Origin: a virus
IMG/VR virus record: IMGVR_UViG_3300028423_000997
Span: 1 to 34,646 of that record
Strand: one strand, 5' to 3'
DNA: 34,646 bases
Shown: positions 1 to 15,499 of the stretch, piece after piece
Layout of the letters: every line of letters begins with the position of its first letter
Position numbering within the stretch: the first letter of the stretch is position 1
Translations under genes and position numbers: made by a program
Notes under the pieces: model-generated
The model's database searches: none
Seen by the model: only the letters and a program-made list of their open reading frames with translations
What the model was told of the DNA's origin: nothing

Positions 1-242
1 TCAAAATTGTCTTGGGAAATCTCTGCATTTAGCCCATAGAAAACTTTGTATTTGTTTTTACCCAACAGATTAAGATTATAACTGTTAGCTTTGTAAAAAT
101 AATCATCATCCTGGATGTATTCTTTTATTTTTCCAGTTATTCTTTCAACGGTATGTAATGTGAAACGGTTTATGCTTACTTGGTTAACATCACGACACAA
201 ATAAACCAAATAGTCATAAATTTGCTTTTCGGTATGATTCAT
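1..242 (-). CDS. Hypothetical protein, C-terminus cut off by window edge
   Basis: An open frame runs on the minus strand from an ATG at 242-240 to the window edge, giving 80 codons with no stop. The protein starts MNHTEKQIYDYLVYLC and is rich in Tyr, Asn and Lys, with no signal peptide or membrane segment. The ATG overlaps the stop of the upstream methyltransferase gene (ATGA, 239-242), which points to translational coupling in the same operon. I do not recognise the family. The coding call rests on the uninterrupted frame and the typical operon overlap. Confidence 0.6.
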   Translation of the reverse strand, partial: MNHTEKQIYDYLVYLCRDVNQVSINRFTLHTVERITGKIKEYIQDDDYFYKANSYNLNLLGKNKYKVFYGLNAEISQDNF

Positions 243-1504
243 GATGAAGTAAAAGGTGGACCCTTTCCTACAAGTTGCATGTTTGGAAAACGTTGTTGCA
301 AATAATTTTTCCAGTTCGCATGATGATTCTCATTGAATCTAAACTGGTGCCAGTCAAAAACATTACTGTACCAAAACCAGGACTTTTCTTCCTGATCTAC
401 TGTTTTGTCCAAGAATTTTTTCAACATTTTAACATTGTTTACAATGTCCAATCTGAAATAATATTTAGGCACTTGGCTATACAGATTGATAAATTTCTCC
501 CAATCAGAATCACTGATGCCCAAAGAGTCTCTCTGTTTCTTGAGCATATAATTGATCTTGGGAATTCCAGAACCGTATATCGGAAGTATACGATGATTTA
601 TTCCATCAGTGTATATATCATAAATCTGATCGAAATCATCATGTATACCACGTTCGCACACCCACCTGTCAGATACCATTTTCCAGTCAATTGCTGTTAA
701 CGAAATATCAAGATAAACAAATTTAAAATCTGGTTTTGTATGACCGTCCAATGCCGCTTTGAGTAAGCTTTTGTATCCGGCTGCAACACTTATATATGTT
801 TTTATTTCTGGATCAGCAGGGTCAAGTCTCCCATCAACATCATTATTAATATTTTCTGTATTGGTTATATATACTCCGTGTTTGAGGATATTTGAGTCAA
901 AATCATCCTGCTTCTGATGATCTTTTTCTGAATTGAATTGTGCTTTAATTTTTCTTTCTGGGCGCTTTTTGTCTGTATACAGACAGTATACATTTCTATC
1001 ACCCATTCTTATATCCAAAATAAAAGGAACAGCCTCATAAGCATATCTATCAAACAAATTGGAAAAGTCAGGACTCTTGTATGCGTCTGACGGATGGGGT
1101 TCTGCAATAATGACAATACGTGGCTTTACGGTTTCGATTAATCCTTCAATATATTCGTCTAATTCTGGATTTCCATGCTTTCCACAGTAATACATAAAAC
1201 CACTTAAAATTAAACAATCATATTCTTTACTGTCGCGGCCATACCAATGCTTATAATCCCACCCACACAGCCTTGCAAAATCATGTTGGGGATAGTTTTC
1301 TTCACAATAGTCTATGCATTCATCATCATTGTCGACACCGAAAAGTCTATAATCATAATCCTTTAAATGTTCATTTACCCTACTAACACCACAGCCAATA
1401 TCTACAATACTATGACAATCATTTTCTTGAATAAAATCTGCAATTTTTTCGAACATTGGATTTGCTTCTGGTGAAAGCAAATAACTCCACTGGTATGAAT
1501 CCAT
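239..1504 (-). CDS. SAM-dependent methyltransferase with an unknown C-terminal domain
   Basis: About 421 residues. The N-terminal half is a class I Rossmann methyltransferase: motif I VDIGCG near residues 34-39, an acidic residue closing strand 2 (FGVDN near 56-60), a motif-IV-like stretch (YDCLILSGF) and an AEPHP segment near 135. After about residue 185 comes a charged linker and then a second region of about 200 residues containing YLDISLTAIDW and WFWYSNVFDW, which I cannot assign. The substrate is unknown. An upstream in-frame ATG at 1510 overlaps the previous stop, but a GAGGA sequence sits 7 nt before the second ATG (1504-1502) and directly abuts the first, so I chose 1504. It is the second-last gene of the accessory operon seen here; the downstream gene overlaps it by 4 nt. 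Confidence 0.75.
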   Translation of the reverse strand: MDSYQWSYLLSPEANPMFEKIADFIQENDCHSIVDIGCGVSRVNEHLKDYDYRLFGVDNDDECIDYCEENYPQHDFARLCGWDYKHWYGRDSKEYDCLILSGFMYYCGKHGNPELDEYIEGLIETVKPRIVIIAEPHPSDAYKSPDFSNLFDRYAYEAVPFILDIRMGDRNVYCLYTDKKRPERKIKAQFNSEKDHQKQDDFDSNILKHGVYITNTENINNDVDGRLDPADPEIKTYISVAAGYKSLLKAALDGHTKPDFKFVYLDISLTAIDWKMVSDRWVCERGIHDDFDQIYDIYTDGINHRILPIYGSGIPKINYMLKKQRDSLGISDSDWEKFINLYSQVPKYYFRLDIVNNVKMLKKFLDKTVDQEEKSWFWYSNVFDWHQFRFNENHHANWKNYLQQRFPNMQLVGKGPPFTSS

Positions 1505-1506
1505 TT

Positions 1507-2007
1507 TCATTCCTCGATATAAACTCCCCAGATATATGGGTAGTTATTTTTAATATTTATAATGTGTTCAAAACCAATGTTGTCAGATATTTCACCCAAT
1601 TTTATTCTCCCTGTATTGTATTTGGGAAGTTTATAGTCAATATATTTTTCTAATTTGTTGTTCGTTATCCATAATTCCAAATCTTTCATGTATGCTCGTT
1701 TCCAGTTTTCATAGTATTGATTATTTTGTTTTCCTGCCTTGCTAAAAGTATACCTAATATAAGGCATTACATATTCTTGAGGCTTTACTTTTTTATTTTT
1801 TACTAATTCCACATCGTTTGAATAAAGGCAATTCATAAGATCTTTTCCAACTGTAGCAAAATCTAAATAAAGAACATCAGGACGTGTGGGTTCAAAAAGA
1901 TTATAATCAGAATTAACCAATTGATATATGCTTTTCATTGTTTCATTATCAACTGCGTTTCTTATTACAGTAAGAAGATATGGATTAGAATTACTAGTGT
2001 CTTCCAT
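1507..2007 (-). CDS. Hypothetical protein, accessory operon
   Basis: About 166 residues starting MEDTSNSNPY; an in-frame TTG lies 12 nt further upstream at 2019, but neither start has a clear Shine-Dalgarno sequence, so the ATG is preferred. The protein looks soluble and globular (LYLDFATVGKDL, YIWGVYIEE at the C-terminus), Tyr/Asn/Lys-rich, with no transmembrane segment and no motif I recognise. Its stop overlaps the ATGA before the methyltransferase gene. It sits between the first radical SAM gene and the methyltransferase, so it may be a partner or substrate of those enzymes; that is inference from position only. Confidence 0.6.
   Translation of the reverse strand: MEDTSNSNPYLLTVIRNAVDNETMKSIYQLVNSDYNLFEPTRPDVLYLDFATVGKDLMNCLYSNDVELVKNKKVKPQEYVMPYIRYTFSKAGKQNNQYYENWKRAYMKDLELWITNNKLEKYIDYKLPKYNTGRIKLGEISDNIGFEHIINIKNNYPYIWGVYIEE
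1554..1561 (-). promoter_or_regulatory. Possible late promoter box TATAAATA
   Basis: The minus strand reads TATAAATA, the exact T4 late consensus, about 50 nt upstream of the methyltransferase start. It lies inside the end of the upstream gene in an AT-rich stretch, so a chance match is quite possible. Confidence 0.25.
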
Positions 2008-2033
2008 ACGATGAACCAATTGATTTATTTTTT

Positions 2034-2345
2034 CTAATAAATTATAAAAATCTTTAATTGAAGTAACAGCCTGGTTTGATTATCAATAGCTTCATATTCG
2101 TTATAGTCAAATCTTTTTACCGGTTCATTTATTTCAGAAATATAATGTTTTGTAGATTTCCAAGATTCAAGAAATGTTTTTGTAATGTAATGATTTTCTA
2201 AATTAAAAACAATACTTTTATGATTTTCGCTATCTTCTTGATATATTTCATTTAATGGAACATAAAATGTGTTGGTTCCATTTTCATTATATTTTTCGTT
2301 TTCGTTACGTAGGTTTTTACTGTAAACAATCCTAAGTTTTGTCAT
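2034..2345 (-). CDS. Small hypothetical protein downstream of a radical SAM gene
   Basis: About 103 residues starting MTKLRIVYSK. A longer start at 2363 exists, but GGTGGA lies 6 nt before the ATG at 2345, so the shorter form is preferred; it overlaps the end of the radical SAM gene by 14 nt. The protein is rich in Asn, Tyr, Glu and Lys, has no Cys, and ends with a hydrophobic stretch (LLLQLKIFIIY). No family recognised. Small genes directly coupled to twitch radical SAM enzymes are sometimes their peptide substrates, but the absence of Cys and of a leader/core layout gives no positive support here. Confidence 0.55.
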   Translation of the reverse strand: MTKLRIVYSKNLRNENEKYNENGTNTFYVPLNEIYQEDSENHKSIVFNLENHYITKTFLESWKSTKHYISEINEPVKRFDYNEYEAIDNQTRLLLQLKIFIIY

Positions 2346-3729
2346 ATCGTGTCCACCATTCATAAAGTTCAGGATCTCGTTTGTAGATGTCTTCCAGTCG
2401 TAGCTTTTCCTGGCGTATTCTATCTAATTTATCCTGGTATCCTTTACCATTACGAAATTCCTGTTCTGCACGTTCTGGCCATTGCTCTTCAAATGTCGGC
2501 CTATTTTTCATTTCACGCAGCGTGTTGACCAGAGTCATTTGTTTTTGTGATGCCCGTGGCTCCATGTATTCTAGAAGCTGATCAACATGTTTATCTAAAA
2601 TATAACGAGGCCACGCGAAGGGACTGAATACAATATCAGGATGAAATGCAAACATGATTTTTGTTTCAATCCTAACATCGAGTTCACGGCTTAAATCAAA
2701 GAGATCTTTTAGTGAAAACATTCCTGGTCCTGTAATTGTAAGATCGAACAACATACGATCCTGACCTCCAGGAAGTTCCAATCCTCTTTTGAAATTTTCT
2801 AACCAGTCTTCCCAAACAATTCCTTTTCGAATAAATTCGACAATTTCACCAGTGCCATCAATACTAGCACACATTAACCAGTCTTTAAATTCAGGTAGAT
2901 AATCATATAGATTTTGGCCTTTAAAATCAACACGACTGAGATTGCTGTTATAACGCAAGTAACAGTTTTTTGCACTTCCGTTATTAACCATTTCTTCAAG
3001 TGCCCACCAATGTATATCATACATAAGAGGTTCGCCGCCGACCCAGTAGATTTCTTCCACGATACCGTCGCTGATGGCTTTACGAAATTCTGGCTCAACA
3101 ACATTAATCTGAAAATCTTGCATTTTATGTTTAACTTCTGGAATCATAAATGGCTGATTTTCAGGAGTCCACATATCATGTTTTTTCTTTTCAGCTTCCC
3201 AGCTTGAACTCAATTGTTCTCCACACATACGGCACTTGAAGTTACAAAGGTTGCTGTAACGATAATCAAAGCTAATGACCGGCATATCTGTACGCCCATC
3301 GTCATCTGTTTTGTCAAAAGCTTCTTGAATTTTATCACGAAACATCACACCTGTAAACCATTTACGATAGCTGCTCATACTGAGGATATCTTCATTACAA
3401 ACATCACATTGAGGAATTCGTTCTCCTGCCATGAGCTTTTTGCGAATATCTCGCATGTATTCCGAATTCCAATGTTCTTCAAGGCTTGTTGGATTGAATT
3501 CATCTGCATGTGTTTTGGATTCTTTTATATCTCCATAACGTTCATCATTGCTTGCATCGATATATTGTTTCTGGAAACTGTGTTCTTCTCTACTCGCACA
3601 GCACAAACGGCGCTCGCCTTGAGGACTGATATATGTGTGTGCCCAGGGCGCCATACAGAAAGTTTTATTTTCGCTGTCTGGGCTACAACTTCCATCAGGA
3701 AGCCATTTGGGTATTTTTCTTTCAGTCAT
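2332..3729 (-). CDS. Twitch-domain radical SAM protein 1
   Basis: 465 residues. The radical SAM motif CxxxCxxC is CNFKCRMC (C162, C166, C169), which binds the 4Fe-4S cluster that cleaves S-adenosylmethionine. It is followed by a GGEPL motif (WVGGEPLMYD), the usual SAM-amine-binding element, and by a YNSN segment typical of the SPASM/twitch group. Upstream of the core is an N-terminal cysteine region: C25 in FCMAPWAHTYISPQGERRLCC, C43/C44, and C108/C111 in QCDVC. This matches the N-terminal twitch layout, where an auxiliary Fe-S cluster precedes the core. Proteins of this group often modify peptides or proteins; the substrate here is unknown. It is clearly more diverged from the two radical SAM proteins upstream than those are from each other. 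One base separates it from the preceding gene, so it is co-transcribed. Confidence 0.88.
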   Translation of the reverse strand: MTERKIPKWLPDGSCSPDSENKTFCMAPWAHTYISPQGERRLCCASREEHSFQKQYIDASNDERYGDIKESKTHADEFNPTSLEEHWNSEYMRDIRKKLMAGERIPQCDVCNEDILSMSSYRKWFTGVMFRDKIQEAFDKTDDDGRTDMPVISFDYRYSNLCNFKCRMCGEQLSSSWEAEKKKHDMWTPENQPFMIPEVKHKMQDFQINVVEPEFRKAISDGIVEEIYWVGGEPLMYDIHWWALEEMVNNGSAKNCYLRYNSNLSRVDFKGQNLYDYLPEFKDWLMCASIDGTGEIVEFIRKGIVWEDWLENFKRGLELPGGQDRMLFDLTITGPGMFSLKDLFDLSRELDVRIETKIMFAFHPDIVFSPFAWPRYILDKHVDQLLEYMEPRASQKQMTLVNTLREMKNRPTFEEQWPERAEQEFRNGKGYQDKLDRIRQEKLRLEDIYKRDPELYEWWTRYDKT

Positions 3730-3730
3730 T

Positions 3731-4288
3731 CTACCTCACATACAAGGCACCTTTACCAGTGCCTGAAAAACTTTGCACAAATCCATTCCTGTTATGATCC
3801 CCATATGCAAGAAACGTGTCTCCTGCATCAATACCAAAGCCTATATTTTCACTAGGCTGTTGCCAGACACGTATTGGACTTGAATTCGGATCGATACTCA
3901 AAAGGTTGCTATTTTTTATATCCATAGCAGGTGTTATACTGCTAAATTTTTCGATACTGTTATGAACATACATTTTGAATGGAAATTCTAGCCATTCATT
4001 GAATGGCCATTTAAAGCAATCAACTTTAGCCATTATATTATATTCATTGTTTTTTGTCATGAGCTGATTAATTTGAGCGTCAGATAGCTTTACATCTTTT
4101 ACTTTTTGATCATTCAAATGATTATTATTATCCCAATCAACTTCTGCTACACGTATCCAACCCGATCCATCAGAAAATACAGTTTGCAGATTTACATGTT
4201 CTCCGCCTACAAAATATTCGTAATATCCATCCTTTAAGTAATGATAATCACAAAGATAATCATATGACGATGAGTATTTTTTATCCAT
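3731..4288 (-). CDS. Hypothetical protein between oxygenase and radical SAM genes
   Basis: 185 residues, beta-rich in appearance, rich in aromatic residues and Asn/Asp (DGYYEYFVGGEHVNL, GSGWIRVAEVDWD), with a Gly-rich C-terminus (GIDAGDTFLAYGDHNRNG). No signal peptide, membrane segment or family motif that I recognise. It starts with ATG inside the last 8 nt of the 2OG-oxygenase gene and stops 1 nt before radical SAM gene 1, so translation is very likely coupled to both. It could be a partner or a protein substrate of those enzymes; this is positional inference only. Confidence 0.65.
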   Translation of the reverse strand: MDKKYSSSYDYLCDYHYLKDGYYEYFVGGEHVNLQTVFSDGSGWIRVAEVDWDNNNHLNDQKVKDVKLSDAQINQLMTKNNEYNIMAKVDCFKWPFNEWLEFPFKMYVHNSIEKFSSITPAMDIKNSNLLSIDPNSSPIRVWQQPSENIGFGIDAGDTFLAYGDHNRNGFVQSFSGTGKGALYVR

Positions 4289-4895
4289 GGTATTTTACTG
4301 TCCTTCCTGGTTTCCAGGTTGCATAATGCAACTGGTTTTCGTCCCATTCCTGGTCACTAAAAACAGTTACAACACTTTTCCTGTCGACTGGTTCTTTAAT
4401 AAGATTGACACCGTGCCAGGTAAGATTGTCATATGGTGCGATAATTTTACAACTGTTTCTCACAAATGGCGCAACTGCTAATGTCTCGTATTTCTTTGTA
4501 AATTTATCAACCGAATAAATTGCAGTGCCAGCTTCAGGGCTACTATCATCGTCAGCAAGATAGACAGTCATTGTGAATACCCTAGGATAACTATCACAAT
4601 GTGGTTTCAAACTATACCCTGCACCAGCCCTTTGCCAAAACGTGTAGATACTAGAAATTAGGTCACTGCGTAATGGACTATCACGGAATTTTTCAAAGAG
4701 TAACTTGACAAAATTAGGGTTATCAAAAATTTCAAGTATGTGCTCGCTTGCTGTTTGCAAATTACAACCCATGAGTTCCTGATAAACATCATCAGGAAAT
4801 AGATTTTGTATTGCAACCCATTCAAATCCGTCTTTTTCAATCCGAGAACGCCGTAGCGCATCGACTGTATGCTGCTGTGCTCGTTCTAAATCCAT
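4281..4895 (-). CDS. 2-oxoglutarate/Fe(II)-dependent oxygenase
   Basis: 204 residues with the double-stranded beta-helix signature of the prolyl-hydroxylase-like family: iron ligands H99 and D101 in PHCDSYPR, distal H161 in LTWHGV, and R172 with S174 in the DRKS segment, placed to bind the 2-oxoglutarate carboxylate. GTAIY near 123 and the spacing of about 60 residues between HxD and H are also typical. The enzyme would hydroxylate or otherwise oxidise a substrate using O2, 2-oxoglutarate and Fe(II). T4-like phages of marine bacteria commonly carry such genes, mostly with unknown targets. It starts 3 nt after radical SAM gene 2 and overlaps the next gene by 8 nt. Confidence 0.85.
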   Translation of the reverse strand: MDLERAQQHTVDALRRSRIEKDGFEWVAIQNLFPDDVYQELMGCNLQTASEHILEIFDNPNFVKLLFEKFRDSPLRSDLISSIYTFWQRAGAGYSLKPHCDSYPRVFTMTVYLADDDSSPEAGTAIYSVDKFTKKYETLAVAPFVRNSCKIIAPYDNLTWHGVNLIKEPVDRKSVVTVFSDQEWDENQLHYATWKPGRTVKYHG

Positions 4896-4898
4896 TGC

Positions 4899-6377
4899 TT
4901 ATCCTAGCTTGTCTTCCTGTGTGTTCCAGCCGTGTTTCAAGTCATCATTTACATACACATCGGTTGTTGCAGGGTCTCCTGCTCTCTCTGCTCGTCTCGC
5001 GCTGTAGACAAGCTCTGGACTATATTCCAGGCTGTTGTACCAGTCAGAGAATGTTGGAAACGTCTCTGAGAAGTTTTTTCCACGGCGGCGGTCATACTGC
5101 TCATAAAAATATTTGAAGTCGTTATACAAGCGATCTTCTTCTGCCGTGTGGCGATGTGGAGTTTTGACAACGTCAAGATAATCAATCAATCGCTGAACAT
5201 GATCAACTTCATGATCCCAGAGCTCACTGCGATTTTCAGCAAACCAATTCTCTAGTTTCTCCTTGAAAACATTCTTGAGCTCAACTGGAATAATTGCAGG
5301 ACTCTGAAAACTCGGGAAGCGCAAAATATTAAGTGTCATGCTTGGTGCACGTCCACCATATTCTCTTCTCAACTCAAGCATATCATCCATGAATTCCGTG
5401 ATGCTTTCTAGACATAGTGAATTGATAGTCATCATCATATGAATTTTATGAATATTTCCGTCTCGGATCAATCGATGAATATTTTTAAGCCATACATCAT
5501 AATCCATGCCATCACGGATATATTCACTTTGTGCACCAACACTCTCGTTGCTTGTGTAAATTTCTAATTTCTTGACGCTATGACTGGCTTCTAATAGGCG
5601 CTGTAATAGCTTGTCTTTTTCAGGAACAAGATTTGAATTGATAGCAAAACGCATTTCGCTATCAGGATTATCTTTGAACCAGTCAAACAACTTCCAAACT
5701 GATTTGTGCATCATGGGTTCTCCCCCTGTAACACGAATCTCTTCTAAATTTTGACTCAGACTAGAATCCCACCATTTCCAGAAAGCTTGGATATACGGAT
5801 TATCTTCTTCGTGCTTGGTTTTTCTGCCTGCCCAAGGCGCTGTATCTACAAAATGACCACGACCATCACTCTGGATATTCTTATAGGCACCATTTTCTTT
5901 TATATCCTTAACCCAGGTTGAACTAAACGCAGGGTTACAGTATGAGCAAGCAAAATTACAAGCACGGTCAAATGCAATTTCAAGCGTTTTTAGATCTACA
6001 TCCTCATCCCAAGGCAGTTCTGCTAGACGTTGAACATCTTGGTCTTTGTAAATTTCTGTTTTGTAAACACGATCACTCACATTGTTTCGTCCAATGTCCT
6101 CGACTTTCCAGCAATACTCACATTCTTGCGGGCGTTCACCTTTAAGCATCATTTCACGCATTTTTTTCTTGTGTTGCGTATTATGAATTGCGCTGGGATT
6201 TTTCTTGATCTCTTCTTCGTCAATCCAATGCGCAGGAGGGTGGTGACAACTGGCTGTTTGTCCATGCCCTAACCAAATCGTAGCATTATACCATTTTGCT
6301 GCACAGAAGCTATCTGATACTGGATCAATCATTCGCTTCTTGTATTCTAGATGTGTTTCTTTTCCAGCCTTAGCCAT
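4899..6377 (-). CDS. Twitch-domain radical SAM protein 2
   Basis: 492 residues. The radical SAM motif is CNFACSYC (C140, C144, C147), followed by the SAM-binding motif RVTGGEPMMHK and an INSN segment. The N-terminal region carries C25 (FCAAKWY), C44 (ASCHHPPAH) and C86/C89 (ECEYCW), fitting an auxiliary-cluster twitch domain before the core. It shares with protein 3 the HPP element after the second cysteine, the HNT segment, the CxYCW pair, the SDR segment and the overall order, so the two are tandem paralogues. It differs from protein 1, which lacks the HPP element. The reaction and substrate cannot be read from the sequence. A start at the ATG 6377 is supported by AGGACA 9 nt upstream. Confidence 0.88.
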   Translation of the reverse strand: MAKAGKETHLEYKKRMIDPVSDSFCAAKWYNATIWLGHGQTASCHHPPAHWIDEEEIKKNPSAIHNTQHKKKMREMMLKGERPQECEYCWKVEDIGRNNVSDRVYKTEIYKDQDVQRLAELPWDEDVDLKTLEIAFDRACNFACSYCNPAFSSTWVKDIKENGAYKNIQSDGRGHFVDTAPWAGRKTKHEEDNPYIQAFWKWWDSSLSQNLEEIRVTGGEPMMHKSVWKLFDWFKDNPDSEMRFAINSNLVPEKDKLLQRLLEASHSVKKLEIYTSNESVGAQSEYIRDGMDYDVWLKNIHRLIRDGNIHKIHMMMTINSLCLESITEFMDDMLELRREYGGRAPSMTLNILRFPSFQSPAIIPVELKNVFKEKLENWFAENRSELWDHEVDHVQRLIDYLDVVKTPHRHTAEEDRLYNDFKYFYEQYDRRRGKNFSETFPTFSDWYNSLEYSPELVYSARRAERAGDPATTDVYVNDDLKHGWNTQEDKLG

Positions 6378-6413
6378 TAATTTGTCCTATTCTTTCTATT
6401 TCTGAATATTTTT

Positions 6414-7859
6414 TTATCTAACACGCTCATTGAATTCTTTCTTGCACTCATTCCACCATCCAGATAACTCTGGAAATGTTTTTACAAAATCGACATCGCG
6501 TCTGTCGTTAATTTGATTGAAATATTTCCAGAATGTTGCTTTGCGATTTTTTAAATCCTGATTACTTATTTGATCTGAACCAGCTTGAATCCAGGCACGG
6601 TTTCTTTTATGCACATTTTGTGCACTCATCCAATCTGGAAACTGCAAGAATGGAATATCAAACCAGATACGTTGGCGCCGTTTTCTCACAAATTCAGGAT
6701 GTTCATGCCCGCCATGATCAGGAGGCTTGATTCTTACTTCTTCCTGATTTTCATATCCGAACTCTTCACGCAAATCCAAAATCATCTGTAAGAATCCACG
6801 CAAATTGGGAATACTCATCAGATTAAAAGTATTAATAAAAGTAATTTCTGTTCCGTGCGTTTCTTGCAATACTCGGCGAACATTGTCCAGCATGACTCGA
6901 TAATCAAGTCCTGTCCTAATATACTCAGCTTGCTCTCCAACAGAATCAACACTTACAAACAATGAAAAATGTTTACATGCAGGCGCAACATACCAATGAT
7001 TTCCAGAATCCGGATTTATCCTGTCTGGATCTTCCCATACCCGAATCTCTTCAATAGATTTCAATTGTTCTATAAATTTATCAAACAACTTCTGATTTGG
7101 CGGACACATGTTACTTGTAATACTAAGATCCAAATCACCTTTGGGATTTTTGTTTACATAATCTAGAACTTTAAACGTATTTTTGTCCATGAGTGGCTCT
7201 CCACCAGTCATGCGAAATACTTTTAGGTCCGGATATAATTCAGGCCACCATTCCCAGAAAGCTTTGACGTATGGATTGTCTTTGTTAGGGATATCATATG
7301 GCATCAAACCAGATTTAGTGAGACTGTTGATATCGTTATGCCTACCTTTTCCCAGTAATTTGAGAGGACCTTTTTCTTTGACTTCTTTCTCCCATTCAGT
7401 GCTCAGGTGTGGTGAACAATATGTGCACTTAAAATTACATGCTTGATTGAAATTAACTTCAACATAACGTGGGTTGATGTTTTCATCCCAGGAGCCTTCA
7501 ACAACTTCATCCCAAGCATCTTCAACCCACCATTCACTACTGCGATAATGACGGTCACTCAAGTGAGGTCCATCTGGTGCGTCTTCAATATTCCAGCAAT
7601 AATGACAACCAGAAGGACGTTTGCCTTCCCACATCTGCTTACGCTGACGAACTTTCTCATGTGTGTTATGCAATGCGCGAGGAGTAACTTTGAGTTCCTC
7701 AAGTGGCACCTGATGCGTGGGAGGATGGTAGCAACTCTGTGTTTGACCGTTTGGCAAGTGCATACTCACTTGTAGCCATTTGGCCATACACATTGTTGGA
7801 GAAATTTCGTTTAGTTTTTCTTTGGTCTTTTTTGCATTTTCAAAATAGTCTTCAGACAT
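6414..7859 (-). CDS. Twitch-domain radical SAM protein 3
   Basis: 481 residues. The radical SAM motif is CNFKCTYC (C141, C145, C148), followed by RMTGGEPLMDK and ITSNMC. N-terminal cysteines C24 (MCMAKW), C43 (QSCYHPPTH) and C85/C88 (GCHYCW) match those of protein 2 in order and spacing. A 36-nt gap separates the two genes, the longest gap within this stretch of the operon. In the middle it has an insertion around residues 265-290 (KSIEEIRVWEDPDRINPDSG) absent from protein 2, so the pair has diverged and may act on different positions or substrates. Starts with ATG, 9 nt after the glycosyltransferase stop. Confidence 0.88.
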   Translation of the reverse strand: MSEDYFENAKKTKEKLNEISPTMCMAKWLQVSMHLPNGQTQSCYHPPTHQVPLEELKVTPRALHNTHEKVRQRKQMWEGKRPSGCHYCWNIEDAPDGPHLSDRHYRSSEWWVEDAWDEVVEGSWDENINPRYVEVNFNQACNFKCTYCSPHLSTEWEKEVKEKGPLKLLGKGRHNDINSLTKSGLMPYDIPNKDNPYVKAFWEWWPELYPDLKVFRMTGGEPLMDKNTFKVLDYVNKNPKGDLDLSITSNMCPPNQKLFDKFIEQLKSIEEIRVWEDPDRINPDSGNHWYVAPACKHFSLFVSVDSVGEQAEYIRTGLDYRVMLDNVRRVLQETHGTEITFINTFNLMSIPNLRGFLQMILDLREEFGYENQEEVRIKPPDHGGHEHPEFVRKRRQRIWFDIPFLQFPDWMSAQNVHKRNRAWIQAGSDQISNQDLKNRKATFWKYFNQINDRRDVDFVKTFPELSGWWNECKKEFNERVR

Positions 7860-7868
7860 TACGTCCCT

Positions 7869-8849
7869 TTATTCAATATCACTTACTACGTCTGTTTCGC
7901 GAACCATTGGACCCATGCGACTTGGATTTCGATACACACTCTTGAAGAAACGGCTACCACGTTCATCTAGATCAGCAATTTCCAGATCAAGTTCGTCTCG
8001 CAAAATTTGTCCTTTTTCAGTAATAGCTCGTTCTAACTCTTCTCGATCCCATTTATATCCTGTGCGTTCGCAAAGTTCGCCTCCAGGATTTTCAAATTCT
8101 GGTGCTATGGTTTCATTCCAAAATTTATTAAGCCATTCAAAATCTCGAACGTTAGTCCAATCCCATTCGTCCCTGCGTAGATTTGTCATTTCACAGCCTA
8201 AACGAGCGCCGTACATTGCCCATAGTCCATTATCTGAATCCGCACCCACTGTCTGCCAGATTAGTAGTCTCTGGTAATTTTTTCCATGGATATTTTTAAT
8301 CTCTGATGGATCAACAACATCGCCGTTTTCAAGTGTCATCTTGACACCTTCACGGAATCCTGCTCTCCATGCTTGCAACGGGCTTGCATTGTTGAACACC
8401 TGAGAATAGATATTATTCATTTGAATATAATTGATATTCCAACAAAAATCAACCTGTGCCTGGCGATTATTTTCAGGTGCTGCTTCGTGTGTTCTCATGT
8501 TTTCTACTAAGTGTTTAGTCCAACTTTTGATACCACCATTCCCATAAACAAGACCGTTTACTTGATTTTTAGCTGCCCAACTGATAACATCGTTTTTACC
8601 GATTGCACTCATATCAAGCTCTAGATTAAAAAAATCTGGATCAACACGGTTATCTGCATCAACAGTAATAAATCGTGATGTTTCACACAATTTCGCGGCG
8701 GCTTTGTGTGCTGCATCTGATCCATATACTCCGTGACTACGAACTGCCCATGGACATTTATCTAGCAGATCTTGCCAATTCTCGTCTGCGTTAGGTTCAT
8801 CATAACTAATGAACACGATATCAAATTCTGTAATAGGAACCAAGCTCAT
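7869..8849 (-). CDS. Glycosyltransferase, GT-A fold (GT2-like)
   Basis: 326 residues. The N-terminus reads as a GT-A nucleotide-sugar-binding domain: FDIVFISYDEPNADENW at the first strand, GSDAAHKAAA near 43-52, and ITVDADNRVDPDF near 61-73, where DAD (64-66) is in the position of the metal-binding DxD. The rest is rich in Trp and Asp and ends in a charged tail. Similar proteins are common in T4-like phages of marine bacteria and are usually called glycosyltransferases, although donor and acceptor are not known. It overlaps the gene before it by 4 nt (ATGA). Next to two further GT-A-like proteins and a methyltransferase, a role in modifying a glycan on the virion or host surface is plausible but unproven. 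Confidence 0.75.
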   Translation of the reverse strand: MSLVPITEFDIVFISYDEPNADENWQDLLDKCPWAVRSHGVYGSDAAHKAAAKLCETSRFITVDADNRVDPDFFNLELDMSAIGKNDVISWAAKNQVNGLVYGNGGIKSWTKHLVENMRTHEAAPENNRQAQVDFCWNINYIQMNNIYSQVFNNASPLQAWRAGFREGVKMTLENGDVVDPSEIKNIHGKNYQRLLIWQTVGADSDNGLWAMYGARLGCEMTNLRRDEWDWTNVRDFEWLNKFWNETIAPEFENPGGELCERTGYKWDREELERAITEKGQILRDELDLEIADLDERGSRFFKSVYRNPSRMGPMVRETDVVSDIE

Positions 8850-9838
8850 TTTACTTTCCTTTTTCCGACCACAAGATTGTGGTTTTTATATAAAATATTG
8901 ACTTTCTCAATGTCAAAATCTATACGATGTCTTTCAACATATCCCAATCTCAAACGACTTAAATCTACCTTCACTGCACCAATAAATTCATCCACTGTAT
9001 CACCAACTAGATAGAAAGGAAATTGTTTACTTACCAGACCAAGATGTTCAAATTGTTCTGGGATTACGCATGAAGATATGATTAATTGGTCGTCTTTTTG
9101 TAAAAACTCTATATGATAATGATTATCATCTTGCGAAATATTTTCAGCAGTTTTTATCTGATTTGTTTCTTTTTTAACTGTTCTTTGGTCTTGACTTATA
9201 TATCTATCTTGAATAATTTCAAATCGATAATTTTCAAAATACCTTAATGTGAGCATACTGATTTCATTTGGGCTGGCAAATGCAGTAATATCGCCAGCGT
9301 CAATAACAACGCGGCGATTCATAATCAAATCTTCTGGATTAACTTCATATGTTTCGATCAAAAAATCAGGATTGTTTTTCTTTATGAGATAAAACTTCAG
9401 ATTGTCGCTATAATCAACCCTTAGCTTTTGTCTCATTTGTAAATTAGCAAGACGTTTGAGACTGACAGGATTAATTTCAAATATCAATTTTTTATTTACG
9501 ACATAATATATAGCCCTGACGTCCCAGTCGGCATCTCGTTTTCTGGAAATTTCATAAAGTTGATTCTCACGAGAACGTAGACGGAGAACATTGCTAATTT
9601 CCATCATTCGATAGTTATGGTCTTTGTCTAGCTCTACCCTAAAATTTGCTTCATCGGCTGTGCCATCAATAATTTTTCTTGCCGATTCATCCCGTGTTAT
9701 GATATACGGAATATTCGTATTTTCATTCAGAGAATGACCAACACTGACAATTTCGCCCGTCCATTCATTAAAATAAACGTAATAATTAGGCTTTTGTCTT
9801 TTTCTTGGCTTTCTTGTAACGGTTACGGATTCTGTCAT
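8846..9838 (-). CDS. Hypothetical protein, accessory operon
   Basis: 330 residues, starting with a basic stretch (TRKPRKRQKPNYY). The body is beta-rich with repeated hydrophobic strands, a YYVYFNEWTGEI segment at the N-terminus and a VVIDAGDITAF segment in the middle; it looks like a soluble multi-domain structural or scaffold protein. No catalytic motif is evident. It overlaps the upstream glycosyltransferase-like gene by about 53 nt, an unusually long overlap for this operon, and the downstream one by 4 nt. If a later start were used the overlap would shrink, but the first in-frame ATG is at 9838. Family unknown. Confidence 0.7.
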   Translation of the reverse strand: MTESVTVTRKPRKRQKPNYYVYFNEWTGEIVSVGHSLNENTNIPYIITRDESARKIIDGTADEANFRVELDKDHNYRMMEISNVLRLRSRENQLYEISRKRDADWDVRAIYYVVNKKLIFEINPVSLKRLANLQMRQKLRVDYSDNLKFYLIKKNNPDFLIETYEVNPEDLIMNRRVVIDAGDITAFASPNEISMLTLRYFENYRFEIIQDRYISQDQRTVKKETNQIKTAENISQDDNHYHIEFLQKDDQLIISSCVIPEQFEHLGLVSKQFPFYLVGDTVDEFIGAVKVDLSRLRLGYVERHRIDFDIEKVNILYKNHNLVVGKRKVK

Positions 9839-10643
9839 GTGTTTCTTTATCTATAATATCACTATCATGATATACAAACAATCCTGTTTGTCTATGATTA
9901 TTCACTTTTATCTGGTTTCCATTGATCCAGACATTGCAAGATTCTTTCCAATCGGCAGAATTGTTTTCTTGATCTTTGATACGTATGGTTTCTGGAATGA
10001 AATCAGTATACTCCATGTAACGAACAGAAAACTCATAATTTTCACCCAGCATGTGAGCAACGATATTTACTGACAAAGTATAATCAAACCAACCTGGACG
10101 ATTTTCCTTGGCATAGATACCATAAACTTCTCGCCAATTCCTAAAAACAGCATCGCACATTTTAAAAAATTCCGATGCTTTGATATCTTTTTTAAAATAG
10201 ATCAACTCAGCGTTAAAAAACGGCAAATTGTTTTTTCTTTGAACCCAGAATCGAGAAGAATCGTCAAGGTTATCGCCACGAAAATCATTAGGTGATCCAA
10301 AAAGCAATTGGTGATCATCAACACCATGCCAGAGCATTTCAAGATTGTCTACTGCTACTGCATATGAATTAATCAGCAGTGTTTCATCAAAAGGAGTGCA
10401 ATAGAACGCCTGCCAGGATTCAACTTGTTGATTTGAATCTTCGTAATCTGTTTTACCGTAAGCTAATTCAACAATGTAATCAAAACAATGTTCGTATTTC
10501 TTAGGGACTTGGTCAATACTTTCAACTACTACAGCAACTTCGCGTTCTTGGTCTAAGTGTTTTATTGTGCTAGCCAACGTGCCAGCCGCACGTATGTTTC
10601 TTGGAACATCGATAGCAAAAATTAAATACCCTTGTGTTGTCAT
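9786..10643 (-). CDS. GT-A-like protein lacking the DxD motif
   Basis: 285 residues, paralogous to the gene just upstream. Alignment by eye anchors on CTPFDETLLINSYAV here and YTPYDRTLLLDIDYLV there: the metal-binding DxD of the neighbour is N92-S93-Y94 here. Other shared features are the opening strand (YLIFAID), the FFNAELIYFKKD segment matching WSTAIYFRKN, and the SVNIVAHMLG segment matching SIAAHIINGMG. The fold is probably retained but metal-dependent transfer looks impaired. It may be a binding or regulatory subunit for its neighbour, or use a different chemistry. The C-terminus is Lys-rich (RNRYKKAKKKTKA). It overlaps the upstream gene by 4 nt. Confidence 0.7.
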   Translation of the reverse strand: MTTQGYLIFAIDVPRNIRAAGTLASTIKHLDQEREVAVVVESIDQVPKKYEHCFDYIVELAYGKTDYEDSNQQVESWQAFYCTPFDETLLINSYAVAVDNLEMLWHGVDDHQLLFGSPNDFRGDNLDDSSRFWVQRKNNLPFFNAELIYFKKDIKASEFFKMCDAVFRNWREVYGIYAKENRPGWFDYTLSVNIVAHMLGENYEFSVRYMEYTDFIPETIRIKDQENNSADWKESCNVWINGNQIKVNNHRQTGLFVYHDSDIIDKETHDRIRNRYKKAKKKTKA

Positions 10644-11542
10644 GATTCTTCCTTGTCAAATAGCTCAATAAGTTTTTCATATGAACGATCAAGAGCACGT
10701 TTATTCATGACATGAATATTTTCATTCCTAATATTAATCAATGTGTCTTTCCAGTTTTCTTCTCGGTTGTTTACCAAGTAAATCCAGTCATCAAGGTCGT
10801 TAATTTTTGCAATACCATCACGCTGGCTCATATTTACAAGCTTTCCTGGAAATGATCCAATCAATTCACCAGAACCCATTCCATTAATAATATGTGCTGC
10901 AATACTCACACAAAAATCAGTTCGATACATTCCTGCAGAAAACCCATACAAAAAGCTATAAAATTCATAATTTTTTGTAACATGTGCCCAAGTATCAAAA
11001 AACAACTTGGAAACATCATTATTTTTTCTAAAATAAATTGCTGTGCTCCAGAACATTGGAATTCCGTTAGGATTTAGATTTCGTTCAGACTCGGCTGGAG
11101 GTAGACGATTGAGTGTTTCTGCTTCATGAAACATCGCAACTTCTTGGTCTGAATCAAAAATATAATCTAATGAATCATTTTGAACTAGATAATCAATATC
11201 TAGCAATAATGTGCGATCATAAGGTGTATATTTATTTACACGATGTTTATTGGTATTTTTGAACTGCGTCACAAAACGTGTCCAGGGTGAATCATAATGA
11301 ACACGTTTGTTTGTAGTGTGGACTTCGTCAGTTAAAACCACATCATCAAAAATGATCTTCGCTTGGTCTTTTCCTTGACTTGAACAAAAATAATCCCACG
11401 TGCCCTTGTCTGTAATCAGACATGTATTGTTATTTTTCATATATCTTTTGATATATCTAGCAGCCAAACCTGCCAATTTTACATAATCAATTTCAGGTGT
11501 ATTATAGGCAAAAAACACAACACCACGAGTTTCTTTACTCAT
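10640..11542 (-). CDS. Glycosyltransferase-like protein, GT-A fold with DxD
   Basis: 300 residues from the ATG at 11542; an in-frame TTG 6 nt upstream is less likely because the ATG forms a TAATG junction with the preceding gene. The N-terminal strand GVVFFAYNTPEIDYVKLA and the LLLDIDYLVQND segment, with DxD at about residues 115-117, fit a GT-A glycosyltransferase of the GT8-like type. Donor and acceptor are unknown. It is followed by a paralogue without the DxD motif. Both lie in the accessory operon with a third glycosyltransferase. Confidence 0.7.
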   Translation of the reverse strand: MSKETRGVVFFAYNTPEIDYVKLAGLAARYIKRYMKNNNTCLITDKGTWDYFCSSQGKDQAKIIFDDVVLTDEVHTTNKRVHYDSPWTRFVTQFKNTNKHRVNKYTPYDRTLLLDIDYLVQNDSLDYIFDSDQEVAMFHEAETLNRLPPAESERNLNPNGIPMFWSTAIYFRKNNDVSKLFFDTWAHVTKNYEFYSFLYGFSAGMYRTDFCVSIAAHIINGMGSGELIGSFPGKLVNMSQRDGIAKINDLDDWIYLVNNREENWKDTLINIRNENIHVMNKRALDRSYEKLIELFDKEES

Positions 11543-11889
11543 TACCAATTCATTGCCTTTTTTACATTTCTAGCTTTTGCTAGTTTTTTGTATTCGGTTG
11601 AATACTCGTTTACTGCTTCAAAATATTTTGTTGTAAGTGTTTTTAGAAAGTCCTCTAGATTGGTAATATCAACTGGAATATTTTTTTGGTCTAAAACAAT
11701 TGCGTCCTTATTTCCAGAACGCAACAAGGCTTCGACAAAAGCAATTGTTTCTTTATCAGCTAGAAACATTCCATTCTGGTAATGCACTACCAACATTGTT
11801 TCAAAACGTCGCATAATTGCGCGTCTCTGATTTTCAATCGTAATACGATAGTTGGAAAAGGCGAGCGCCTTTTCTAGACGTTCATCCAT
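11542..11889 (-). CDS. Small conserved phage protein, first gene of accessory operon
   Basis: 115 residues, mostly alpha-helical and charged (MDERLEKALAFSNYR at the N-terminus, KKLAKARNVKKAMNW at the C-terminus). It resembles small conserved proteins of unknown function in T4-like marine phages, by general recollection of sequence pattern only. It is the first gene after the sigma70-like promoter at 11914-11941, and AGGAGA at 11895-11900 gives a strong ribosome binding site 5 nt before the ATG. The stop overlaps the next start (TAATG). Confidence 0.75.
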   Translation of the reverse strand: MDERLEKALAFSNYRITIENQRRAIMRRFETMLVVHYQNGMFLADKETIAFVEALLRSGNKDAIVLDQKNIPVDITNLEDFLKTLTTKYFEAVNEYSTEYKKLAKARNVKKAMNW

Positions 11890-11950: not shown

Positions 11951-13861
11951 TTAGGTAGTTGGAGTCCAGTCATACTGAACATCACTTACCCAAACAGTAT
12001 GTGTGCCACCTGTATCAAATGTTGTGCCGTAGTCATTCCAAACGACAAATTCCACTTGTGCTACTGGACCAGCAACTTCAATAAGAAGACTGTTGCTTGC
12101 ATTTGCTGCACTTGAATTGCTTGGATCAGCTGATGCTTCATTTCCGCTCACTGTTAGGTTACTACCGCCAGTTAATGTGACAGGAACAGGATTACTTCCA
12201 GAATCGTATGCGTTCACAACAATACGTTCATCGCGAGATCCGTCGTCATCAATATCACTGATACGGAATGAAAGGTTAGTAACTTCGGTTGATGCGCTTA
12301 CACCTGTATCAGGAGCGAACGTGAATGTTGTTTTGGATGTATTACTACTGTCAGTTCCTCTAATACGCAAACTTCCTGTTGTGTTGTAATTTTCTCCAGT
12401 TGCCACATAAATTGTAGTATCACCATCATATGAGAAGTCTAGAACATTTCCGTTCAACTCATTAACAAGAACGGTCATTATCATGCTTCCGCCGTCAATG
12501 TCGAATGATGTATTCTTGGTAATAATATCACCGTCTGAATATCCGGCGTTGGCAAATCTTGCAATTTCAGTGTATGATTCTGGTTCGGGCTCAGGTCCTG
12601 AACCTGGATCACCCTGAACATCGTCAGTGAAATCATTGATCGCAGTGATTGCAGGAATTGAATTTCCAATGCTAAACACAGCTGAGTTATCAGTGATGTC
12701 ATCGGCTGCTTTGTATCCTGCATTCAATGTAGTTGTTCCTGCGATATCTTGATTGGTAAAAGAACTATCATCCATTGTAACACGAATATCCATACTGATA
12801 TTACCAGCAGCAGGTGCGTTTTCAACAATTTTTGCTTCAAAAAGAACAACTAGATCGCTGTAAAGACTGTATTCTGCATATTCACCATATTCACCGTAAT
12901 CACCATCACCAGAATACGGAGCATATGGTGAAGCACTTGTATATATAGTCTGATATTCAGTTGATAGTTCATACGCACCAAGATTTTCACTTATACCACC
13001 GGTTCCTGATTGTCTTGCGGTATCATAGTCAACAATCAATGATCCCATTTGTCCAACTACTTGGTTCCAGTTAAGGTATCCAGCATCAGCAACATCTCCT
13101 GTCATTTCAATGTTACAACGAACTTCGCCACCTGAATTAAAGAAATACCGAAAGTCGTCATATGTATCCCAGGTCCAACGAAATACACCGACCAACTTTG
13201 TATCCCAGGGATCAGTTCTGGTAAAACTTTCGACTGAACTTGAAACAGTTGCAACAACATTGTTCCAATAATTTGTTCCAGTTAGGATATCATCATCAAT
13301 AGCAGTTTGAATCGTGTTAACATCGGTTGCAAAGATCTTGTTGCCCTGTGCAACCCTAGTTAATTCTGAAGGGCCGCCCGTACGTTCCTCCATGATATTA
13401 ACTTTATCGATAAGGTTGTTGGTATTAGCTTCAAGATATGCTTGCAATGTCGCTTCATCTGCAAGAATAGGATCACCTTCGCTAATTGGATACACACTTG
13501 CTTGTTGTCCCCAACCATAACGATGTGTTGTTCTATTATAAACCTTGAGAGCAGCATTTCCAGCTAGCTCTCCTACAAATGTAATGACACCTGTGGTATA
13601 ATTGATGTTATAATCAGCGGATTCATGCAACGTGACGTCGTCGACCATCACGACTAAAAAATCATCTGATTCTGGTATTGGCGATAAATTCCGTGTCGCT
13701 CCTGCACTTTCACCACTTGCGTTTGCAACATCATTTAAAATTAAATCTGAAGTAGCCCAGGCCAGAGAAACAGTATTATCACTGAAAAGTCTGTTAACTT
13801 CCAGTGCAAGATCATTGTAGTTCTGGACTACTATCAGGTCGCCTATACTTACATTAACCAC
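11951..13861 (-). CDS. Virion structural protein (tail fibre or decoration type)
   Basis: 636 residues with a composition typical of extracellular virion proteins: rich in Ser, Thr, Gly, Asn and Asp, low in Cys and Lys. The N-terminal 110 residues contain YNDLALEVNRLF and a YNINYTTGVITF beta strand motif seen in phage fibre proteins. A Tyr-rich block near residues 312-338 (YGEYGEYAEYSLYSDL) and an acidic PEPEPES linker near 430 divide it. The last 200 residues look like a beta-sandwich (adhesin-like) domain ending in a Trp-containing strand. The start is GTG at 13861, directly after the TAA of the upstream fibre gene. It may form a fibre or adhesin tip; no specific T4 homologue can be named. 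Confidence 0.7.
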   Translation of the reverse strand: MVNVSIGDLIVVQNYNDLALEVNRLFSDNTVSLAWATSDLILNDVANASGESAGATRNLSPIPESDDFLVVMVDDVTLHESADYNINYTTGVITFVGELAGNAALKVYNRTTHRYGWGQQASVYPISEGDPILADEATLQAYLEANTNNLIDKVNIMEERTGGPSELTRVAQGNKIFATDVNTIQTAIDDDILTGTNYWNNVVATVSSSVESFTRTDPWDTKLVGVFRWTWDTYDDFRYFFNSGGEVRCNIEMTGDVADAGYLNWNQVVGQMGSLIVDYDTARQSGTGGISENLGAYELSTEYQTIYTSASPYAPYSGDGDYGEYGEYAEYSLYSDLVVLFEAKIVENAPAAGNISMDIRVTMDDSSFTNQDIAGTTTLNAGYKAADDITDNSAVFSIGNSIPAITAINDFTDDVQGDPGSGPEPEPESYTEIARFANAGYSDGDIITKNTSFDIDGGSMIMTVLVNELNGNVLDFSYDGDTTIYVATGENYNTTGSLRIRGTDSSNTSKTTFTFAPDTGVSASTEVTNLSFRISDIDDDGSRDERIVVNAYDSGSNPVPVTLTGGSNLTVSGNEASADPSNSSAANASNSLLIEVAGPVAQVEFVVWNDYGTTFDTGGTHTVWVSDVQYDWTPTT

Positions 13862-14920
13862 TTACTTGGTTCCCACTACTGCCTCGATAATTCCTGCTTC
13901 TTCGTTGACTTTATCTTCAAGAGCGCGCCCAATAACATTTTGCCAATCATGTGATTCAGATCCAACTGCCATGGCATGACCAGGTGTATCTGAAGTTATT
14001 AAGCGATCTCCTTTTTTAACAGTTCCCACAACACGAACAGGAATACGCCCCGAAAGTGCAATGAACGGATGAGTTTCTTGTGAACCAGCGCCGCTGTTCA
14101 TCATAAATGCTGGACTATCTGAAACAACTCCAAAAACATCGGAAGATTTTTTCTTGGTCGTCTGTGTTACTTCATATTTGCCACCAATTTCAACCACGGT
14201 TCCATATTCATATACTGCGTCAGCATGATAACGTTCTGCAAGGTCAGCGTATAGTGCGCTGGTTGCAGTTCCCTGGAAATAGTATCCAGTTGTTTCATTC
14301 AAATTGACACCTTTACTAATATTTGAAAACTGTGTGTCAAGAAGAGTAACACCATCTTCAAGATATTCCGTGTTTGATCCTGAATTTTGTGGAGCCCATG
14401 AACTATCACTTGAGGAGATAGAAACAATCTCGCCGTCCACGATAACTTCTATCGTGCGGTGCGAGTTATCATCCGTATCAAAACGTGTTCTTGACTCAAT
14501 ACGAGTATTGCCAGTAACGTCACTGACAGTAATCCAGCTACCATTATAGTAAATATACAGGATTCCAGTATCTTCATCAAGCCAAAAATGACCATCTTGT
14601 TCACCAAAACTAGTTGGTGCACTAGATTGAACTGTCATGCTTGCAATTGATTTCCAGTTTCCTGAATTTGAAACGGTATTATCGAAATACTTTAATTCAT
14701 TATGATTTGAGTCATACCACAATTGGCCTTCAACTGGCTTTGATGGTGGTGATGAGCTAGCAAAATTTTCTAGTAGATGAAGGAAATTTTCGGCTGTTAT
14801 TTCACCATAACCAGTGTATCCTCGTCCTGTGAGTCCGAGATTGGTTGTGGTGTCAACAAGTCCGTTAGCAACTGTAATTGCAGTTTTCGTTCCATCTGAA
14901 TAATTAACTGTATATGCCAT
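13862..14920 (-). CDS. Tail-fibre-type structural protein with G2-peptidase-like C-terminal region
   Basis: 352 residues. The N-terminus has the GRGYTGYGEITAENFLHLLENF block and then GQLWYDSNHNELKYFD and GHFWLDEDTGILYIY, repeated short motifs characteristic of fibre proteins of T4-like marine phages. From about residue 225 the sequence (DLAERYHAD, YEYGTVVEIGG, VFGVVSDSPAFMMN, SGRIPVRVVG, VKKGDRLITS) resembles the peptidase-G2-like or intramolecular-chaperone domains found at fibre ends, which help trimer folding and may be cleaved off. Whether it cleaves itself is not known here. It sits between two other fibre-class genes on the late strand. Confidence 0.78.
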   Translation of the reverse strand: MAYTVNYSDGTKTAITVANGLVDTTTNLGLTGRGYTGYGEITAENFLHLLENFASSSPPSKPVEGQLWYDSNHNELKYFDNTVSNSGNWKSIASMTVQSSAPTSFGEQDGHFWLDEDTGILYIYYNGSWITVSDVTGNTRIESRTRFDTDDNSHRTIEVIVDGEIVSISSSDSSWAPQNSGSNTEYLEDGVTLLDTQFSNISKGVNLNETTGYYFQGTATSALYADLAERYHADAVYEYGTVVEIGGKYEVTQTTKKKSSDVFGVVSDSPAFMMNSGAGSQETHPFIALSGRIPVRVVGTVKKGDRLITSDTPGHAMAVGSESHDWQNVIGRALEDKVNEEAGIIEAVVGTK

Positions 14921-14923: not shown

Positions 14924-15499
14924 TTATCCTGTCGAGAATCTTACGGTGTAAACTACTTGGATCTTCCTGTTAACAGATTTCTGTACGGGATGAAAGATCA
15001 AGTGAGTTAGTAATCTACCCTGTTGTGACACTAGGCCGATCTCATCAAATACAAAATTGCCCTCTTGGTCACTTGTATCGTCGAGCGGGTCTTGCCCTTC
15101 CGGCTCGGTATAGTCTAGTGTGCATGTAATGATGACATCACTAAAGGTGGTGCCACCTGTATGGACCACGGTAGTGTTATTATCCGGATCCTCGTCGATT
15201 GTGTAATCAACTTCTTTTTCATATGTTTGGTTGTGTAAACTCGCGGTTGTTTCGCTTGTATTGGCTGTGCGGTATGTGACATTTCCACTTCCATCAATAA
15301 CAACACCGCCATTTCCGAACGCCAGTTTGTTGATAAAACCTTCGTCACTGTTTACATCGAAAGTATTAGATAGTGCACTTGCTATTGCAAAGCTCATGTT
15401 TTCATAATGAATCGCATTGCGGCGATTTAAAATAATTTCACCACTGTCTGCGTCTTTAATCAAAACATGACCTTCTACATTTATCTTTGCGTGATCCAC
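14924..15499 (-). CDS. Conserved virion structural protein
   Basis: 191 residues. The opening VEGHVLIKDADSGEIIL, RRNAIHYENMSFAIASAL and INKLAFGNGG segments form a pattern that I recognise from structural proteins of T4-like cyanophages and relatives, where it is found beside tail-fibre genes. The middle is Asp/Thr-rich; the end is beta-stranded (RKIQVVYTVRFSTG). Start is GTG at 15499, with AGG about 9 nt upstream. A late box (AATAAATA, 15529-15522) lies just upstream, matching expression late in infection. Confidence 0.72.
   Translation of the reverse strand: MDHAKINVEGHVLIKDADSGEIILNRRNAIHYENMSFAIASALSNTFDVNSDEGFINKLAFGNGGVVIDGSGNVTYRTANTSETTASLHNQTYEKEVDYTIDEDPDNNTTVVHTGGTTFSDVIITCTLDYTEPEGQDPLDDTSDQEGNFVFDEIGLVSQQGRLLTHLIFHPVQKSVNRKIQVVYTVRFSTG

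Follow-up and report, generated by a model that had tools for sequence, protein, structure and literature searches.

A fibre-linked cassette of glycosyltransferases and N-terminal twitch radical SAM enzymes in a T4-like jumbo phage, with a possible role in building and tailoring tail-fibre glycans

Gene content of the locus

We examined a viral DNA of 34,646 nt (positions 1-34,646 of IMG/VR record IMGVR_UViG_3300028423_000997; hereafter the window) and a cassette of glycosyltransferase (GT) and radical S-adenosylmethionine (radical SAM, rSAM) genes on its minus strand, next to genes of tail-fibre type. Genes for a portal, a prohead protease, a major capsid protein, SbcC/SbcD-type exonuclease subunits and a late sigma factor were identified in the window. 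Its capsid protein is 67-71% identical to those of the jumbo phages Vibrio 2.275.O, Phosso, PA5oct/MIJ3 and Kaldavass, and about 30% identical to those of T4-type phages. Judged by these genes, the window is a 34.6-kb piece of a T4-like jumbo phage.

An earlier note on this DNA, made from its letters alone, had described an operon at 239-8849 with three full-length N-terminal twitch (N-twitch) rSAM enzymes, a 2-oxoglutarate (2OG) oxygenase, a methyltransferase (MT) and a GT. All of these genes are present on the minus strand, the GT being GT-A-like, and the junctions, which the note gave as mostly overlapping or 1-14 nt (36 nt at most), measure -32 to +36 nt. The bounds that it gave did not hold: the unit extends upstream to 15499, with gaps of at most 61 nt from the first gene, h191, to the MT gene, and an open reading frame (ORF) at 3..242 is cut by the left end of the window, so that the cassette continues past it (Table 1).

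A conserved fibre/glycosyltransferase core with a variable tail

Searches anchored on RS2, RS3 and GT326 yielded 158 distinct contigs of IMG/VR that carry RS2 or RS3. The gene order h115 > GT302 > GT285 > variable gene > GT326 > RS3 > RS2 was exact in 113 of the 125 contigs that reach h115, and fibre-type genes precede it. Behind RS2 lies a variable tail, in which we found RS1 (98 contigs), other N-twitch rSAMs (112), h170 (12), MT (11) and the 2OG gene (8, always beside h185). The set named in the earlier note is thus not a conserved unit, and its stress on two co-located radical chemistries was misplaced, since the conserved heart is fibre genes plus GTs and the oxygenase is one optional tailoring gene among many. 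Tails of the relatives also encode UDP-glucose/GDP-mannose dehydrogenase, carbamoyltransferase, further rSAMs and, judged by eye, SGNH-like and additional methyltransferase-like proteins. As many as 19 N-twitch rSAMs lie on one contig, and second clusters join such enzymes with carbamoyltransferase, UDP-sugar dehydrogenase and GT326 paralogues. Four contigs of 198-342 kb (G031, G038, G039 and G050; loci L117, L136, L138 and L169) have 17-19 N-twitch rSAM genes each, several of them in such second clusters. We conclude that the cassette, borne by large phages from marine and freshwater settings, is real, widespread and conserved.

T4-type phages glucosylate their DNA, and pairs of a 2OG enzyme and a GT exist for DNA, which we counted toward the idea that the 2OG oxygenase, GT and rSAM together hypermodify phage DNA. 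The optional status of the 2OG gene (8/158 contigs) and the location of the genes in a fibre region, not with nucleotide metabolism, make this idea hardly credible.

Because the first searches started mostly from rSAMs, a control search was anchored on GT302. Among the 56 loci with enough sequence, a twitch rSAM was found in 44, while the other 12 have the fibre/GT core without one and in most cases hold paralogues of GT326 and other genes in its place. The rSAMs are thus additions to a fibre/GT core. Correlations of pairwise protein distances tell of the inheritance of these parts (200 permutations each, none as high as the observed value; a single copy per locus, the first, was taken, which leaves some noise from paralogy). 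The correlation with capsid protein distances was 0.91 for h191, 0.87 for GT302, 0.87 for GT326, 0.79 for GT285, 0.78 for RS3, 0.72 for RS2 and 0.70 for RS1. Distances of GT302, GT285 and GT326 follow those of the fibre-locus protein h191 (r 0.88-0.90), and rSAMs correlate better with one another (0.79-0.85) than with the GT core (0.57-0.79). This pattern agrees with vertical descent of a fibre/GT block and partial exchange of an rSAM block. A capsid tree, built to ask whether the cassette is ancestral, had no resolution along its backbone.

The earlier note had offered co-inheritance of its gene set as a check and scattered, independent gain as a refutation. The outcome is mixed: GT326, RS3 and RS2 stay together, while RS1, 2OG, MT and the small genes are present in some relatives and missing from others, and certain fibre/GT cores are entirely free of rSAMs. 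Its proposal of a phage-encoded modification pathway is likewise supported in part, the tie to the virion being the well-supported element (synteny, co-evolution and a gene run shared with fibre genes).

Table 1. Genes of the fibre/cassette run in the window, from right to left
Gene	Position	Strand	Assignment and basis
h191	14924..15499	-	Conserved virion-type protein, first gene of the fibre/cassette run; phrog_11259, E 1.9e-63
tf352	13862..14920	-	Tail-fibre/structural-type; weak to moderate PHROG tail and structural matches; syntenic in relatives
tf636	11951..13861	-	Fibre-type protein with Tyr-repeat loop (PYSGDGDYGEYGEYAEYSLY); proposed acceptor
h115	11542..11889	-	Small fibre-associated protein, DUF4376-like fold; in 125 contigs
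GT302	10640..11548	-	GT8-like glycosyltransferase; DxD and HxMNK intact
GT285	9786..10643	-	Glycogenin-like (GT8); DxD degenerate in the window (INSY)
h330	8846..9838	-	Variable gene in the GT285-GT326 slot, by position in maps; no match in Pfam search
GT326	7869..8849	-	GT-A-like glycosyltransferase; DxD invariant; model and Foldseek GT-A matches
RS3	6414..7859	-	N-terminal twitch rSAM; NF033640, E 9.6e-87
RS2	4899..6377	-	N-terminal twitch rSAM; NF033640, E 5.2e-98
2OG-Fe(II) oxygenase	4281..4895	-	Optional tailoring gene; PF13640 1.8e-4, below cut-off
h185	3731..4288	-	Constant 2OG partner; adjoins 2OG in 8/8 relatives
RS1	2332..3729	-	N-terminal twitch rSAM; NF033640, E 6.6e-98; in 98/158 contigs
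h109	2034..2363	-	Small variable-tail protein; ORF inside the run; no match in family searches of window proteins
h170	1507..2019	-	Variable-tail protein; relatives in 12 contigs
MT423	239..1510	-	Methyltransferase domain plus uncharacterised C-terminal part; VDIGCG; Methyltransf_25, E 2e-4, below cut-off; 11 contigs
truncated ORF	3..242	-	Related to a 272-aa protein beside MT in L002

Enzyme families and structural evidence

RS1, RS2 and RS3 match NF033640 (N_Twi_rSAM) near full length with 328, 329 and 292 bits, where the curated cut-off is 170 bits, and are accordingly predicted radical SAM enzymes and full-length members of this family, which is defined by sequence. Their CxxxCxxC, GGE(P) and N-terminal cysteine motifs, all reported in the earlier note, are invariant or nearly so in alignments of 25 sequences. 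We know of no NF033640 member with a known reaction, our literature search for the term 'N-terminal twitch' met it in no paper, and a PDB profile search with RS1 gave no match. The iron triad of the oxygenase (HxD and distal H) and the next R, which binds 2OG, are kept in 9/9 sequences, with a Pfam score below threshold; the VDIGCG motif of the methyltransferase is likewise present as had been noted, in a domain that is weak by Pfam.

The DxD residues of GT326 (D64 and D66) are invariant in 25 sequences, again as noted earlier. Its AlphaFold model (pLDDT, a per-residue confidence score, 88.9) has structural matches that are mostly GT-A enzymes and weak (E about 1e-3, TM-score about 0.3), and its Pfam search gave no match. 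In GT302 the DxD is kept in 25/25 sequences together with a C-terminal HxMNK. The GT285 profile matches glycogenin with E 3e-8 and the GT302 profile does so with E 0.23 only; the two are homologous to each other (hhalign 99.9%). Neither window protein has a Pfam GT8 match, and the relatives G024 and G046 are without a PF01501 match.

The AlphaFold model of h115 has a pLDDT of 91.5, and among its named BFVD matches phage DUF4376 proteins rank best; PDB profile searches found nothing convincing for it. In phage CBB a DUF4376 protein is annotated as structural and adjoins a long tail fibre gene. h191 is present in 60 cultured phage records and is labelled 'structural protein' in CBB. TBLASTN against cultured phages found no homologues of RS2, RS3, GT326 or GT302. 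The Phosso genes 286 and 285, of similar size to h115 and GT302, were considered as their counterparts and rejected (hhalign probability 0.1-0.2%).

Cellular location and expression signals

Transmembrane segments were predicted by a simple hydropathy scan: 1,540 of the 1,559 cassette ORFs have none, and one has two or more. In a control bacterial ABC-exporter locus the scan does show several. Among the same ORFs we found no flippase or exporter, no polymerase and no membrane-bound initiating transferase, the hallmarks of O-antigen and capsule systems (Wzx/Wzy or ABC type). So small a share of membrane proteins speaks against a surface polysaccharide pathway that is complete in itself. It also bears on the possibility that the GTs and rSAMs change the O-chain or capsule of the infected cell and so exclude competing phages, a role assigned to the GT8, UDP-glucose dehydrogenase and radical SAM cassettes of pelagimyophages (in the part of PMC7029224 used here), with similar polysaccharide systems described in cyanophages (in the part of PMC7824862 used here). 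Some bacterial homologues of the cassette also lie in Wzm/Wzt-type polysaccharide loci. Besides the lack of membrane proteins, the strict linkage and co-evolution with fibre genes count against such a role.

A late-promoter-like site, ATAAATA (the T4-type late promoter core), lies 23 bp upstream of h191. Of the ten ATAAATA sites in the window, eight precede a gene start by 15-70 bp, a number that none of 20,000 random placements reached. Exact TATAAATA is not enriched across the whole window; the informative part is the position of ATAAATA relative to genes. These signals would predict late expression of the cassette, and a run shared with fibre genes behind a late-promoter-like site would come late for remodelling of the host surface. 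In the window as a whole, late-promoter-like ATAAATA at 1554-1560, 15522-15528, 18268-18295, 24300-24306, 26580-26606 and 33064-33070 precedes structural and other genes by 23-64 bp, and the genome with these sites also encodes the late sigma factor.

The cassette might instead make a diffusible product, a carbamoylated and oxidised sugar metabolite or an antibiotic-like compound. A secondary metabolite is one of two proposals for cyanophage carbamoyltransferase/2OG clusters (PMC7824862, in the part used here). We found no scaffold synthase or exporter among the ORFs examined, and the fixed part of the cassette consists of GTs joined to fibre genes, so we regard a diffusible product as very improbable.

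A candidate acceptor

The fibre-type protein encoded directly upstream of h115 often carries a loop of Tyr repeats, as (YG)n, (YSG)n or (YGG)n, and as GEYGEYAEY in the window. Such repeats occur in 38/173 fibres at this position and in 42/2,465 background ORFs. This enrichment suggests that the glycogenin-like enzymes may use Tyr in some lineages; in most fibres, which are without Tyr repeats, Ser/Thr may be used.

Peptides are the substrates of many rSAMs that have auxiliary clusters. The N-twitch rSAMs could then alter fibre residues directly (cross-links, epimerisation, backbone or side-chain changes), with the GTs as an added step, and the repetitive Tyr/Gly loops do resemble modifiable cores. 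Moreover, in the sister phages Phosso and Atu_ph07 the slot of the cassette is filled by peptide-maturase-like rSAMs and a protein ending in CHxSCHxSCHxSRSRR, an analogue of the His-Xaa-Ser (Hxs) systems. The rSAMs of the window, however, belong to a different family from these, and no CHxS or HxS repeat substrate was found in the six frames of the window or in 4,229 ORFs of relatives. In addition, the window rSAMs are accompanied by sugar-tailoring genes, and Tyr repeats persist in rSAM-less loci (8/12). Direct modification of fibre residues is on these grounds quite improbable.

Cassettes of this CHxS kind lie beside structural genes in Phosso (Sinorhizobium; L288:16638-24381), Atu_ph07 (Agrobacterium; L289:17451-25100), SURPRISE13 (Burkholderia; L322:4451-10996) and pPa_SNUABM_DT01 (Pseudomonas; L323:4480-10823). 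In these cultured jumbo phages the cassettes comprise a cupin, rSAMs resembling peptide maturases, and a protein whose end reads CHxSCHxSCHxSRxRR or nearly so (YCHTSCHASCHSSRSRR, FCHSSCHASCHNSRSRR, VCHSSCHTSCHGSRGRR, ICHTSCHTSCHSARGRR); they look like a phage version of the Hxs radical SAM systems. An IMG/VR search with the Phosso CHxS protein gave no match.

Recurrence in Vibrio phage K566 and bacterial homologues

Vibrio phage K566 has an island (L324:5198-17167) with several N-twitch rSAMs (the whole genome gave five matches), two GT8s of PF01501, a gene judged by eye to be GT1-like, a fibre-like gene (product VPHK566_0311) and the gene for PagP. Its capsid protein is only about 40% identical to that of the window over the matched part, and the island is an independent recurrence of the combination of GT8, N-twitch rSAM and fibre-like genes. 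The paper on these phages records that the island took the place of another one when K566/K567 arose (PMC12028318). K566 is a cultured, receptor-mapped phage and would serve well as a laboratory model.

Two selected bacterial loci place homologues among polysaccharide genes with 2OG/PhyH oxygenases, a Wzt-type ATPase and a carbamoyltransferase. A bacterial ORF of 934 aa (L196:16072-18876) fuses a carbamoyltransferase to a SPASM/radical SAM domain, with ABC-2 exporter and DegT aminotransferase genes nearby. We rejected the bacterial context as proof of a glycan role and count it weakly, since the selected loci support that role and an unselected tally, given below, does not.

Comparison with known systems

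The closest known counterpart is the host recognition cluster (HRC) of pelagimyophages, which holds fibres, GT8s, UDP-glucose dehydrogenase and radical SAM cassettes and is read as modifying the host O-chain (Zaragoza-Solas et al. 2020, PMC7029224, in the part used here). Both belong to T4-like aquatic phages and are hypervariable islands among structural genes, where tail fibres, radical SAM cassettes, several GT8 or GT8-like genes and a UDP-glucose dehydrogenase occur together. The window has the tail fibres, GT8-like genes and radical SAM genes of such an island, a likeness in content; by position, the HRC is defined as lying between VrlC and gp14 in a SAR11 myophage. The window differs in belonging to a jumbo lineage by its capsid protein and h191, and the used part of the HRC paper does not describe a fixed h115/GT302/GT285/GT326 order or large N-twitch arrays. 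That rSAMs and GT8s lie together in fibre regions of marine T4-like phages has thus been noted before; as the earlier note had said of the two radical chemistries, we know of no function assigned to this co-location.

Cyanophage polysaccharide/secondary-metabolite clusters similarly join paralogous GTs with carbamoyltransferases, 2OG dioxygenases and methyltransferases (Iyer et al. 2021, PMC7824862); the term 'radical SAM' is absent from the text of that paper, and the portion used here does not describe the fibre-h115-GT core. The T4-like marine genome TARA_ERS488813_N000010, from a survey of viral genomes of the sea, shows the same unusual radical SAM expansion, with 12 such genes, discussed only as Fe-S proteins and without description of a fibre/GT context in the portion of PMC5332604 used. 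Mycobacteriophages Che8 and Rita, cited in PMC11256854 for glycosylated capsids, also decorate virions with phage-encoded GTs; they differ in the capsid target, and radical SAM is not mentioned in the portion of PMC11256854 used. Within the portions of these sources, we did not find the fixed fibre-h115-GT core, the large N-twitch arrays or the soluble make-up described before.

Discussion

The reading that we favour, tentatively and at somewhat less than even confidence, is that the cassette is a cytosolic system that builds and tailors glycans for the tail fibres of a T4-like jumbo phage. It builds on direct observations: the gene families, the synteny, the co-inheritance, the exchangeability of the tail and the near absence of membrane proteins. 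We infer from these that the phage has a cytosolic glycosylation system, of which the cassette is the late part linked to the fibres. Its fixed core, the GT8-like GT302 and GT285 and the GT-A-like GT326, inherited with the fibre genes and h115, would transfer sugars to a virion protein. The likeliest acceptor would be the fibre-type protein encoded just upstream, on hydroxyl residues of its variable loop, often in Tyr repeats. The rSAMs, together with the 2OG oxygenase and methyltransferase (and, in relatives, carbamoyltransferase, UDP-sugar dehydrogenase and SGNH-like proteins), would modify the sugars by reactions such as oxidation, epimerisation or deoxygenation, so that the decoration would vary from phage to phage; the benefit would presumably be altered adsorption or shielding.

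Several observations weigh against this reading. First, that the virion carries a sugar is a proposal drawn from gene content. Second, the GT285 of the window has no DxD, and the motif is also altered in the close relatives L162, L167 and L123; this loss suggests that GT285 is a non-catalytic partner in the sub-lineage of the window. Third, 131/173 fibres have no Tyr repeat by the pattern used and yet occur with rSAMs, and Tyr-Gly repeats could be purely receptor-binding or structural. Fourth, an ATAAATA 44 bp before MT423 means that the operon may hold an internal promoter. Fifth, 120 genes near N-twitch homologues of bacteria, tallied without selection over 21 loci, included 4 GT2 and 2 GT1 genes only, and Bdellovibrio-type genomes have RS1/RS2 homologues without GTs nearby; with GTs so sparse, the rSAMs need not act on sugars. 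Finally, PagP, encoded in the K566 island (PMC12028318), is a host lipid A enzyme and favours a surface role there, and for this reason we keep modification of the host surface as the main alternative, an unlikely yet serious one.

A more specific form of the fibre-glycan reading is that N-twitch rSAM arrays, helped by oxygenases, carbamoyltransferases and methyltransferases, make radical-tailored sugars on the hydroxyls of hypervariable, often Tyr-repeat, fibre loops, chemical diversity adding to sequence diversity in the phage-host arms race. We find this form rather doubtful. If the fibre-glycan reading is right, aquatic jumbo phages would alter the chemistry of their adhesion fibres by means of enzymes for which we know of no reaction, and, at up to 19 rSAM paralogues per genome, would hold a big reservoir of unassigned radical SAM chemistry. 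Host range or shielding would gain a second, chemical layer of variation. The long-standing puzzle of GT and radical SAM genes in the fibre regions of T4-like marine phages would become testable in the cultured Vibrio phages K566/K567.

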